This document shows positions 42,553 through 47,195 of a stretch of 64,000 nt of DNA, in pieces. Under the pieces are notes generated by a model. That model searched no databases. It was not told where the DNA came from and was given only the letters and a program-made list of their open reading frames with translations. How positions within the stretch are numbered: position 1 is the stretch's first letter; each line of letters opens with the position of its first letter. The position numbers and the translations under genes were made by a program. Origin of the DNA: Streptomyces sp. ITFR-21 (GTDB lineage: Bacteria; Actinomycetota; Actinomycetes; Streptomycetales; Streptomycetaceae); the NCBI RefSeq assembly GCF_031844685.1, contig NZ_CP134605.1:496001-560000 (forward strand). Direction: 5' to 3'.

Positions 42553-43716
42553 TCAGCCGTCCTTCAGCACCGTCTGGTAGAGCTCTGTGGTGCGCCGGGC
42601 GACGGTGTCCCAGCCGAACTCGGTCACCGCGCGCTCCCGGCCGGCCTCACCCATCCGGGCGGCCGTCGCCGGGTCGCCGACCAGCCGGTCGATCGCCTCG
42701 GCCAGCCCGGTCTCGAACTCCTCGGGACGGCTCTCCCGGTAGGGCACCAGCAGCCCGGTCCGGCCGTCGTCCACCACCTCAGGGATGCCGCCGACCGCGG
42801 AGGCGACCACGGCGGTCCCGCAGGCCATCGCCTCCAGGTTGACGATGCCGAGCGGCTCGTACACCGAAGGGCAGACGAACAGCGCCGCGTGGGTGAGCAG
42901 CTGGACGACGGCCGGGCGGGGCAGCATCGCCGGGATCCAGTGCACCCCGTCGCGTACGGCGCTCAGTTCGTCGAACAGGGCGCGGAACTCGCGGTCCAGG
43001 GCCGGGGTGTCGGGGGCGCCGGCGCACAGCACCAGCTGGGCGGCCGGGTCGATCCGGCGGGCGGCGCGCAGCAGGTGCGGTACGCCCTTCTGCCGGGTGA
43101 TCCGGCCGACGAAGAGCACATACGGGCGGTCCGGGTCGATACCGATCCGGTCCAAGACGTCGGTGCGCGGGTCGGGGCGGTAGGTGGCGGTGTCGATGCC
43201 GTTGCGGATCACGTGGACCCGGTCGGGGTCGAGCGCCGGGTAGCTGGCCAGGATGTCGCGGCGCATGCCGTCGGAGACGGCGACCACCCCGTCCGCGGAC
43301 TCCATCGCGGTGCGCTCGGCCCAGCTCGACAGGGCGTAGCCGCCGCCGAGCTGCTCGGCCTTCCAGGGGCGCAGCGGCTCCAGGGAGTGCGCGGTCAGTA
43401 TGTGCGGGATGCCGTAGAGCAGCTTGCCTATGTGGCCGGCGAGGTTGGCATACCAGGTATGGGAGTGCAGCAGCTCGCGGCCCTCCAGGGCGGCGGCGAT
43501 CGACAGGTCGACGGCGAAGGTGCGCAGCGCGTCGTTGGCACCGTCCAGGGAGGAGGGCGCGCGATGCCGGATCACCGCGTCATCGGCGCCCTTTCCCCAG
43601 CTGTGCACTTCGAGGTCCACCAGAGCGCGCAGCTCGCGGGCGAGGAACTCCACATGGACCCCGGCTCCGCCGTACACGTCGGGCGGATACTCCCGGGTCA
43701 GCAGCCCCACCTTCAC
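42553..43716 (-). CDS. glgA: Glycogen synthase, actinobacterial GT4 type
   Basis: 387 residues from GTG 43716 (VKVGLLTREYPPDVYGGAGV) with GGGAGGG 5 bases upstream. The KVGLLTREYPP...GGAGVH start, SHTWYANLAGH and the EX7E motif in CPSVYEPLGIVNLEAMACG mark the Corynebacterium-type GlgA family (GT4), some members of which make alpha-maltose-1-phosphate from ADP-glucose and glucose-1-phosphate. Either that or alpha-glucan elongation fits here. It pairs with glgC downstream. Confidence 0.92.
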   Translation of the reverse strand: MKVGLLTREYPPDVYGGAGVHVEFLARELRALVDLEVHSWGKGADDAVIRHRAPSSLDGANDALRTFAVDLSIAAALEGRELLHSHTWYANLAGHIGKLLYGIPHILTAHSLEPLRPWKAEQLGGGYALSSWAERTAMESADGVVAVSDGMRRDILASYPALDPDRVHVIRNGIDTATYRPDPRTDVLDRIGIDPDRPYVLFVGRITRQKGVPHLLRAARRIDPAAQLVLCAGAPDTPALDREFRALFDELSAVRDGVHWIPAMLPRPAVVQLLTHAALFVCPSVYEPLGIVNLEAMACGTAVVASAVGGIPEVVDDGRTGLLVPYRESRPEEFETGLAEAIDRLVGDPATAARMGEAGRERAVTEFGWDTVARRTTELYQTVLKDG

Positions 43717-43837
43717 CGCGCCCTCCCATCCCTTCGGCAACCGCATCGGTCAACCGCGGTCGTTTCTTGCTTTCCCCGTTCGGGGAAGGCATATCACGCC
43801 GAGGCGGCCGAATCCCGGTCAGGGGGTGATCGGGTTG

Positions 43838-44659
43838 TTACGAGGTGACCAGGTCGAACTGTTCCCAGGCGCCGATGGCGGCCCGGTTGGCGATCAGCGG
43901 CTGGTCCCCGGCGTTCTCCGCGGTCACGTACAGGTTGTCGGCGCGGGCCCGCAGGCTGACCACGGTGCCGCCGGGGGGCGTGGTGTCGCCGCCGATGGTG
44001 GTGGTGGTGGTGACGGGTGGGGTGGGACGGGTGGCGGTCAGCGCGATCTGGCCCTTGAGCATCCGCCCGCCGTCACCGGCCAGCCGCAGGTAGTAGTCCG
44101 AGGAGCACGCCGTACCGTCCTCGTCCAACGCCGAAAACCCCGAATTCGTCGGCACCCACGCCAACGACTCCGCCGTCTTCGCGATCTGGTTCCCCTCGTT
44201 GAACTCGTTGAACTCGTCGAACATCGGGATATAAACGCCCTGCACCCCGCCCGCACCATTCTGCTGCAACCACAGGAAACGCGTGTCCACCGTCTGCTGG
44301 TCGTACGACGAGAACAGGTCCGCCGGCTGCCCGTTCCCCAGACTCGCGTACCCCGTGTGATACGTCCGCGCGTAGTCCCGCACGTCCGGCCACGCCACAA
44401 TCCCCGTGTTCGACGGCGACGGCGCCTGACCCGCGTTCGCCGACCAGTGCCACCACGCATATACCGGTGCACCGTCACCGACCGCCGCCAACCACCCCTG
44501 ACACCCCACCGACACCTTCCCCACCACATCCCCCGGACCACTCACCGCCGCAACACCCCCCACAGCAGACGCAGGTACGGCCACACCCAACGCAGCCAAC
44601 CCCACAGCAGCCGACCCACCGGCCGCCGTGCCCAAGAACGAACGACGTGACACACCCAT
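43838..44659 (-). pseudogene. Tat-exported GH71/GH99-like protein with catalytic core deleted, fascin-like lobe
   Basis: 273 residues in one uninterrupted frame. The Tat signal is MGVSRRSFLGTAAGG with an ASA cleavage site. KVSVGCQGWLAAVGDGAPVY and GYASLGNGQPADLFSSYDQQ match the start of GH71/GH99-like streptomycete proteins. After LWLQQNGAGG the sequence jumps to VQGVYIPMFDEF and EGNQIAKTAESLAWVPTNSG, which belongs to the end of that domain, so about 200 residues of barrel seem deleted in frame. A 9-bp duplication gives EFNEFNE. The last 41 codons are a fascin-like lobe. Third codon positions favour G and T, unlike neighbours. Confidence 0.72.
43841..43963 (-). other. Fascin-like single lobe, copy B
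   Basis: 41 codons LRARADNLYVTAENAG ... LIANRAAIGAWEQFDLVTS followed directly by a stop. It ends the Tat-exported remnant at 43838-44659. Confidence 0.75.
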
Positions 44660-45290: not shown

Positions 45291-45854
45291 GTGACGACCA
45301 CCCCCCACGCCACCGCCCCCGTTCCACTGCGGACCGGACAGCGGCTGGCTCTGACCCTGGCAAGAGAAGAGATGATGCAGGACTACCACCGATGGGAGAC
45401 CGACCCGGCGACCATCGTCGGTTTCGGTGCCCGCTGGCCGGTGTCCTGGGAGGTGTTCCGGGCCCGCTTCCGCGGCGTCCACACCTCCTCCCACTACCAG
45501 CTCTTCGAAGTGATCACGACGGCGGGCGCGACTCCGGTCGGCACCACCTCCCTCAACGTGGACCAGTCGGTCAACAGCGCCGAGTTCACCTTGGTGATCG
45601 CTCCGGAGCACCGCGGCCTGGGTTACGCGGCCGAGGCCACCGCACTCACTCTCGACTGGGCGTTCACCATCGCGTCACTGAACGCGGTGTGGCTGCAGGT
45701 GCTGGCTCCGCACACCCTTGCCGTGAACGCCTATCTCAAGGCCGGCTTCCGTACCGCGGGACGGTTGCGGGATGCCGCGCTGTGGCATGGCAAGCGCGTC
45801 GACAAGCTCCTGCTGGACTGCCTGCCCGACGACCTGGCAGCAGAGAGGAGGTGA
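45291..45854 (+). CDS. GNAT family N-acetyltransferase (RimJ/RimL-like)
   Basis: 187 residues from GTG 45291, with GGAG 10 bases upstream. The RimJ/RimL fold is evident: LRTGQRLALTLAREEMMQDY at the N-end, FTLVIAPEHRGLGYAAEATA (acetyl-CoA pyrophosphate loop, core RGLGYA), and LNAVWLQVLAPHTLAVNAYL, KAGFRTAGRLRDAALWHGKR. It transfers acetyl to an amine, often a protein N-terminus or a small molecule. Its stop overlaps the SD of a 31-residue Cys-containing peptide gene, so the two are translationally coupled and the peptide is a possible substrate. Confidence 0.9.
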   Translation: MTTTPHATAPVPLRTGQRLALTLAREEMMQDYHRWETDPATIVGFGARWPVSWEVFRARFRGVHTSSHYQLFEVITTAGATPVGTTSLNVDQSVNSAEFTLVIAPEHRGLGYAAEATALTLDWAFTIASLNAVWLQVLAPHTLAVNAYLKAGFRTAGRLRDAALWHGKRVDKLLLDCLPDDLAAERR

Positions 45855-45860
45855 TCCGAG

Positions 45861-45956
45861 ATGTCCTGCCCCGACGTGAACTGCCGCAAGGGCGGCTGCA
45901 CCACCGAGCCCGGCCGTAACCGGCCCGCTGGTGACAGCACCCCCGGAAAAGCCTGA
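45861..45956 (+). CDS. 31-residue Cys-containing peptide coupled to GNAT
   Basis: ATG 45861 follows GGAGGTGATC (45847-45856), a ten-base perfect complement to the 16S rRNA 3' end that overlaps the GNAT stop. The peptide begins MSCPDVNCRKGGCTTEP, has three Cys in its first 13 residues, then a Gly/Pro/Arg/Ser tail and TGA. A very strong hairpin follows 35 bases later. I do not recognise it. It could be a modified peptide (RiPP-like), a metal-binding peptide or a leader; the strong SD argues that it is translated. Confidence 0.6.
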   Translation: MSCPDVNCRKGGCTTEPGRNRPAGDSTPGKA

Positions 45957-45991
45957 ACCACCCCCGGCCCACCGGCCGGATGTCCCGCACC

Positions 45992-46030
45992 GAAGGCCGC
46001 GGCGCGCGCCGGACGCGCGCCGCGGCCTTC
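45992..46030. terminator. 17-bp perfect hairpin after the GNAT-peptide pair
   Basis: GAAGGCCGCGGCGCGCG, CCGGA loop, CGCGCGCCGCGGCCTTC. Ends the GNAT-peptide transcript. The remainder of 46031-46292 carries no recognisable gene. Confidence 0.85.
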
Positions 46031-46292
46031 ACCGCCCCCGGGAGGGGAGGCACCGGCTCACGGCGTAGTGTGCCTACGCCGTACGCGGTAGCCGCGCGCA
46101 GAGGTCACCCGTGCGGCGACCGCACCGGCCGGCGGGGTGCTCGCGCAGGTCATCCGCCGTGCCCGGCGTCCGCGGCGGCTCGGCCGCGGGTCCGGGCGGG
46201 CGGCTGCGAGGAAATCCGGGACGGAAGAGGCATACGTCCGGACGGCCAGGGCAGGCGGGCGGCGAACAGTCGGATGAGTGCGAGGCGATGAC

Positions 46293-47195
46293 GTGACCGC
46301 AATGGTTCAGCAGTCGGAAGACACGGACGCCACGGCGACGGGCGAGCGGCAGTCGGGTGCGTCACAGGACGCGACCGGTGGGCTGCCGTGGATCGACGAC
46401 GCGACGAGCGTGGCGCCCCAGGACGCCCGGGTGTTGTCGAAGCTCTTCTTCGACCGCCTCCAGGAGCTGGAGGAGGGCACCCACGCCTACAGTTACGCGC
46501 GCAGCACCCTGATCGAGATGAATCTGGCGCTGGTGCACTTCGCGGCGGGCCGCTACCGCAACCGCCCCGCCACCGACCACGAGGAGATCGTCCAGGTCGG
46601 CACGATCGGTCTGATCAAGGCGATCGACCGGTTCGACCTGTCCCGTGAGACGGAGTTCACCACTTTCGCCATCCCCTACATCGTCGGCGAGATGAAGCGG
46701 TTCTTCCGCGACACCTCCTGGGCGGTGCACGTGCCGCGGCGGCTGCAGGAGCTGCGGGTCGAGCTGAGCAAGGCCAGGGAGCAGCTGTCGCTGCTGCTGG
46801 ACCGCGACCCGACCGTCGCCGAGCTGGCCGCGCACCTCGACCTGAGCGAGGGCGACGTGATCGAGGGCCTGGTGGCGTCCAACGGCTACACCGCGGGCTC
46901 GCTGGACACCCCCTACAGCGACGCGGACAGCGGTTCCGACGGTGAGGGCCGCACCCTGGCCGACACCTTCGGGGCGTGCGACCCGGCGCTGGAGCTGGTG
47001 GAGGACTTCAACAGCCTGGCCCCGCTGCTCTCGCAGCTGCCGGCGCGCGACCGCCTGCTGCTGCAGATGCGGTTCGGCGAGGAGATGACGCAGGCGCAGA
47101 TCGGCGAGGAGCTGGGCTACTCGCAGATGCACGTGTCGCGGCTGCTCGGCAGGACGCTCAACAAGCTGCGGGCGGGACTGCTCGCCCAGTCCTGA
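46293..47195 (+). CDS. SigB/SigF-family (group 3) sigma factor
   Basis: 300 residues from GTG 46293 (VTAMVQQSEDTD), GAGG 7 bases upstream; GTG 46278 is possible. Region 2 is RSTLIEMNLALVHFAAGRYR with EEIVQVGTIGLIKAIDRFDL and FTTFAIPYIVGEMKRFFRDT; region 3 follows (VPRRLQELRVELSKAREQLS); region 4 is LLQMRFGEEMTQAQIGEELG, YSQMHVSRLLGRTLNKLRAG. Such stress or development sigma factors are held by anti-sigma kinases and freed by SpoIIE phosphatases, two of whose relatives occur in this window (25339 and 55273). Monocistronic, ended by a 19-bp hairpin. Confidence 0.93.
   Translation: MTAMVQQSEDTDATATGERQSGASQDATGGLPWIDDATSVAPQDARVLSKLFFDRLQELEEGTHAYSYARSTLIEMNLALVHFAAGRYRNRPATDHEEIVQVGTIGLIKAIDRFDLSRETEFTTFAIPYIVGEMKRFFRDTSWAVHVPRRLQELRVELSKAREQLSLLLDRDPTVAELAAHLDLSEGDVIEGLVASNGYTAGSLDTPYSDADSGSDGEGRTLADTFGACDPALELVEDFNSLAPLLSQLPARDRLLLQMRFGEEMTQAQIGEELGYSQMHVSRLLGRTLNKLRAGLLAQS

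Follow-up and report, generated by a model that had tools for sequence, protein, structure and literature searches.

A three-cysteine mini-protein encoded behind a GNAT acetyltransferase gene of Actinacidiphila and in phage contigs

A GNAT acetyltransferase gene in the window, the whole stretch of 64,000 nucleotides that was analysed, is followed almost at once by an open reading frame of 31 codons that contains three cysteines. The locus raises the question of whether this short frame is a real gene and whether its product belongs to the acetyltransferase or acts independently of it. A sequence-only reading had described the pair as a compact two-gene operon, closed by a perfect hairpin, with a product that may be acetylated or otherwise modified. 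In this study, we followed the small frame through related genomes and phage contigs.

The GNAT-peptide locus and its coding capacity

The frames, the coordinates and the Pfam score of the GNAT agreed with a GNAT gene followed by a small cysteine-containing ORF (Table 1). The GNAT scored 55.0 bits against PF13302 (Acetyltransf_3; gathering cut-off 25.4, E 1.8e-14), and its RGLGYA fits the acetyl-CoA loop pattern R/Q-x-x-G-x-G/A. Both the score and the motif are those of an ordinary RimJ/RimL-type GNAT (PF13302). Coupling to a three-cysteine peptide is not known in that group, whereas the window GNAT is so coupled. The peptide was not found downstream of more distant GNAT relatives in other genera.

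Table 1. Features of the GNAT-peptide locus, in positions of the window.
Feature	Position	Strand	Description
glgA homologue	42553..43746	-	Divergently oriented; marks the conserved locus on its upstream side
GNAT acetyltransferase gene	45291..45854	+	187 aa, GTG start, TGA 45852-45854; RimJ/RimL-like
12-nt Shine-Dalgarno	45846..45857	+	AGGAGGTGATCC; GNAT stop TGA (45852-45854) inside
Three-cysteine mini-protein ORF	45861..45956	+	MSCPDVNCRKGGCTTEPGRNRPAGDSTPGKA; 31 aa, ATG 45861, TGA 45954-45956
Conserved part of the mini-protein	45861-45911	+	Residues 1-17, followed by the variable hydrophilic tail
Perfect 17-bp stem, 5-nt loop	45992-46008 / 46014-46030	+	Probable operon transcription end
Sigma-factor gene	46278..47195	+	Downstream marker; spacing differs among genomes

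The peptide ATG is six bases past the GNAT TGA. The Shine-Dalgarno (SD) sequence overlapping the GNAT stop, first described as a perfect match of ten bases, proved slightly better, with 12 nt that can pair with the 3' end of the 16S rRNA encoded in this genome (GGATCACCTCCTTTCT). The mean SD match was 7.4 nt in the family and 4.75 nt in 255 control ORFs, the latter figure being an upper bound. The perfect hairpin said to close the pair was also recovered, with z = -4.26 against dinucleotide shuffles and equal stability in 0 of 200. There was no T-run 3' of this hairpin, and GC-rich hairpins were found shortly 3' of the peptide in many, though not all, orthologous loci. Between glgA and the GNAT, the window also contains a gene for a predicted secreted protein (43838-44659, minus strand) with a twin-arginine-like start (MGVSRRSFLGTA), which was present among the compared relatives in G024 only.

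Selection was estimated from the first 17 codons. Among 16 distinct GNAT-linked sequences, pN was 0.023 and pS 0.327 (pN/pS 0.07), far from the equal synonymous and non-synonymous rates that had been named as grounds for discarding the gene. The ratio was 0.14 when three helicase-linked phage copies were compared, and 0.41 across the whole family, where silent sites are nearly saturated. The phage contig L168 encodes exactly MSCPDVNCRKGGCTTEP, which is the identical 17 residues written in other codons: L168 has AGT TGT CCT GAT where the window has TCC TGC CCC GAC. The 31-codon ORF codes for a protein on which purifying selection acts strongly. The gene has a very strong ribosome-binding site, and the mini-protein is independent of the GNAT.

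The GNAT-peptide pair was found between glgA and the sigma-factor gene in 22 sampled Actinacidiphila genomes. In the compared loci, the gene order is the same: the divergent glgC-glgA, then GNAT and peptide, with the sigma-factor gene farther downstream. GNAT orthologues at 78-87% identity were present in 23 genomes of the genus. As the sequence-only reading had asked, tblastn searches recovered the small frame behind the orthologous GNAT in nearly every GNAT-bearing genome, and both the cysteines and the SD were kept among the relatives. The peptide was present at every GNAT-positive locus whose contig reached far enough. The GNAT stop lies 4-7 nt ahead of the peptide ATG in 16 of the 22 orthologous loci, and the GNAT ends 30-107 nt upstream in five. 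In the remaining locus (L073, genome G011), a single open frame covers GNAT and peptide without an intervening stop, possibly through a natural fusion or a frameshift. G005 has only the peptide between glgA and the sigma gene, and a GNAT orthologue is absent from the whole genome; two peptides are present in this genome and one in G028, both without a GNAT. In a GlgA tree, the 24 positive genomes fell on one side of a 100/100 branch. The pair therefore arose once in a subclade, and retention followed in 24 of 24 of its genomes.

The three-cysteine family in chromosomes and phage contigs

The peptides share the consensus M-S-C-x4-C-R-[KR]-[GMA]-G-C-[TS]-[TS]-[DE]-P, with cysteines at positions 3, 8 and 13. 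This head is followed by a hydrophilic tail, which is rich in Pro, Gly and Arg and reaches about 15 residues at most; the tail is variable, has no cysteine and is nearly absent in the 19-aa copy of L158. A degenerate pattern gave 51 matches in 26 of 35 genomes of the genus and 0 in the reversed control, and the family has about 50 copies in the genus. Since S2, C3, C8, R9, G12 and C13 were demanded by the search pattern, their invariance is partly built in and counts as independent only in copies located via the GNAT or protein X (described below), in which it also holds. Hydrophobic residues made up 0.2% of the tail and no hydrophobic segment was present, which suggests a cytosolic peptide. 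AlphaFold gave no confident fold (pLDDT 60, pTM 0.18).

With a relaxed motif, 395 genomes of the bacterial family gave believable matches in the own genus only, the remaining matches being about as numerous as those of the reversed control; no believable member was found in the approximately 360 other genomes of that family. In class and phylum samples, the pattern search returned the window's own genome only, and two extra matches look like chance. No credible match was obtained by tblastn of the peptide against plasmid and phage collections (one search gave E values of 3-8 only), and there was none in Pfam, NCBIfam, PHROGs, PADLOC or PDB. A literature search returned no description of the peptide family. 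Undescribed small-protein families are common in general. The earlier statement that no described system matches was borne out in that neither a family nor a publication was found, and the peptides apparently form a previously undescribed three-cysteine mini-protein family.

Most copies outside the glgA-sigma locus have no adjacent GNAT. In chromosomes they are found behind protein X in prophage-like loci, behind an L,D-transpeptidase, or alone. The class MSCSNPDCRKMGCSTDP and its close variants (L131-L133, L136 and L138-L140) are separated by about 150-220 nt from a conserved L,D-transpeptidase gene (YkuD) upstream. The window's own genome contains a second copy, MSCPNVDCRRGGCTSDPQPAPAGGTAGK (L057, G000:C1:66749-66829), with no evident coupled partner, and copies related to it occur in G018 and G024. 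The copies L059 and L060 adjoin a threonine-dehydratase-like gene; just 5' of the SD, about 15-30 nt from the peptide ATG, both have a short, conserved inverted repeat, GCCTATTGAGTAGGC.

Protein X has about 95 aa and a predicted five-helix structure (pLDDT 81). No family match was found for it, and Foldseek returned nothing better than E about 1; it is an undescribed helical family. The peptide lies directly 3' of X in 11 of 12 X occurrences, with the overlap conserved, and the exception is an X copy in G008 without a recognisable peptide. The X sequences (L192-L203; upstream of the peptide, for example, in L134 and L163) share a conserved RLxxLxSxLYH. Among 150 genomes of the bacterial family, X was confined to Actinacidiphila, and it also occurs in viral contigs.

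Metagenomic viral contigs carry the peptide in at least four settings or types, both virulent-type and prophage-like. L162, L168, L170 and L240 (about 57% G+C) fall within or resemble the Streptomyces BI cluster. In L162, L168 and L170, the peptide lies between a DnaB-like helicase and endonuclease VII. L167 and L169 have another neighbourhood, common to both; in L155, a contig of 160 kb, a strong SD precedes the peptide; and L156, L158, L160 and L163 are prophage-like. The integrase of L163 is closest (54%) to that of a genome from another family, which has no peptide. The peptide start shares 4 nt with a CxxCxGxG zinc-finger-like ORF in L168, L170 and L240; in L158, 5 nt separate the peptide from a preceding Cys-rich protein. 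In some phage copies, the motif is identical in amino acids with diverged codons. The helicase-endonuclease VII module of the BI-cluster phages (Beephvirinae: Dennebes, Manuel, Olicious and Stella) is shared or resembled by L162, L168, L170 and L240. However, the cultured Streptomyces BI phages examined have no peptide at the helicase-endonuclease spot, unlike L162, L168 and L170. Unannotated tiny Cys-containing ORFs, MNGWCHCGRPYPCLEHGS and MCGCGECADVGCDVCCCHKNGSR, were seen at this spot in Olicious (L188:3818) and Stella (L190:3873), respectively. Pattern matches in L157, L159, L161, L164-L166 and L171-L184 were rejected as chance, having no SD or unrelated sequence.

Relation of the peptide to the GNAT and to other explanations

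The peptide could be a dedicated substrate of the GNAT, acetylated or otherwise modified in a RiPP-like two-gene operon. The pair itself is compact, translationally coupled and conserved, as had been read from the sequence. The overlapping order, the single GNAT-peptide frame of L073, the peptide's presence at each sufficiently covered GNAT locus and the Ser at residue 2 throughout are consistent with this explanation; an N-terminal Ser is acetylated by RimL-type enzymes. Extra, non-orthologous copies were also commoner in GNAT-positive genomes (18 of 24 versus 2 of 11; Fisher p = 0.003, for genomes that are not independent, with relatedness uncorrected and G005 and G028 as exceptions). However, the peptides of G005 and G028 have no GNAT, the phage copies and most other chromosomal copies have neither a GNAT nor a common modifying enzyme, protease or exporter nearby, and GNAT relatives in other genera have no peptide. 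The adjacent maturase of a RiPP family is lacking at the GNAT-less chromosomal and phage copies. In place of a conserved leader and a modifiable variable core, the conserved part is the N-terminal head, which bears the cysteines. In view of these GNAT-less copies and the Cys-bearing head, the simple RiPP reading was rejected, and the claim of a product specific to GNAT modification was not supported, as most other copies, the viral contigs and the G005 locus have no GNAT. Members of the family are found in phages of several kinds as well, mostly with another upstream gene overlapped each time, so that the peptide is not simply the private substrate of the GNAT, and we regard the dedicated-substrate explanation as unlikely. 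In a softer form, the GNAT, a core enzyme of the clade, may Nalpha-acetylate the constant Ser2, in trans for other copies too. A toxin-antitoxin arrangement, in which the GNAT or X is harmful, the peptide is the antidote and the orphan and phage copies are counter-defence antidotes, appears quite improbable. It would agree with a GNAT that never occurs without the peptide while the peptide often occurs without a GNAT, with the loss of the GNAT and retention of the peptide in G005, with a strong SD that would secure an excess of antidote, and with the existence of phage copies. In TacT and AtaT, as in the window, a GNAT gene overlaps that of a small partner within an operon. However, their antitoxin is a ribbon-helix-helix protein of about 90 aa whose gene usually leads the operon, whereas the partner here is a 31-aa Cys peptide with no Pfam match, second in order and found alone in phages. 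One conserved peptide beside unrelated partners (GNAT, X and zinc-finger-like proteins), the toxin-first gene order, the absence of a DNA-binding antitoxin domain and of a PADLOC match, and the vertical retention between glgA and sigma, which is core-gene-like and not mobile, also argue against it.

Two further explanations would deny the product any importance. The ORF might be a Cys-responsive leader peptide, in which translation matters and the hairpin is the attenuator. Cys-containing uORFs of the attenuator type have been reported in mycobacteria, and the peptide shares with them a Cys mini-ORF, having three Cys codons in 13 and a hairpin 3' of the ORF. However, it lies behind a gene and is not a leader, its Cys codons are unclustered with no consecutive run, and selection acts at the protein level, with amino acids kept while codons change, non-Cys positions included. 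Different classes have different downstream genes, sigma lies at distances that differ by kilobases, and the hairpins are not constant. An attenuator, having neither a constant downstream gene nor consecutive Cys codons here, was rejected as highly improbable. The ORF might also be spurious, with conservation at the DNA level only or as a GC-rich artefact, given its shortness, the GC-rich region and the long open alternative frames. This is refuted by the selection test, and the same protein in other codons in phages of 56-57% GC and the pattern matches in excess of the reversed control leave it a negligible chance.

A possible role of the mini-protein

The peptide is usually the last, overlapping cistron behind the GNAT, protein X or a zinc-finger-like phage protein. 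Ribosomes that end the upstream gene would restart at the peptide and could produce it in molar excess. From its sequence, the peptide is probably a metal-binding intracellular mini-protein common to hosts and phages. The combination of three cysteines with basic residues and glycines is suggestive of metal binding and of docking. Zinc-knuckle, zinc-ribbon and DnaJ-type zinc fingers likewise have regularly spaced cysteines near basic and glycine residues; the peptide differs from them in its CX4CX4C spacing with three ligands and has no such Pfam match. A point against a Zn site is that three cysteines are one ligand short of the classical site; the conserved head has no His, and four metal ligands in a known spacing are not present.

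The explanation we prefer, tentatively and at somewhat less than an even chance, is an autonomous mini-protein that binds metal and docks on a host component also needed by phages. After removal of Met, the S-C-x4-C-R-K-G-G-C-T-T-D-P head would bind a soft metal such as Zn via its three cysteines or, alternatively, form a mixed dimer. The basic loop and the flexible tail would dock on a conserved host component, and phages would carry a copy since they depend on this component or have to tune it. The GNAT would be a co-expressed and dispensable partner, which may acetylate the peptide or a shared target. A bolder proposal, which we consider doubtful, is that the metal-bound and possibly GNAT-acetylated mini-protein docks on a core machine of one bacterial lineage, with the ribosome, RNA polymerase or replisome as candidates. 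Unrelated phages would each have picked up the mini-protein because infection requires this machine to be tuned, and it could have spread by settling, translationally coupled, as the last cistron after any gene on hand.

The 17-residue Cys head is the same letter for letter in a bacterial core locus and in phages of very different base composition. An identical motif in host and phage, with its coupled partners exchanged through repeated overlap with unrelated upstream genes, is unusual. The adjacency of GNAT and peptide is a warning that neighbourhood can mislead about function. If the mini-protein is an adaptor of a host machine, it would offer a direct handle on what the phages of these actinomycetes must control.
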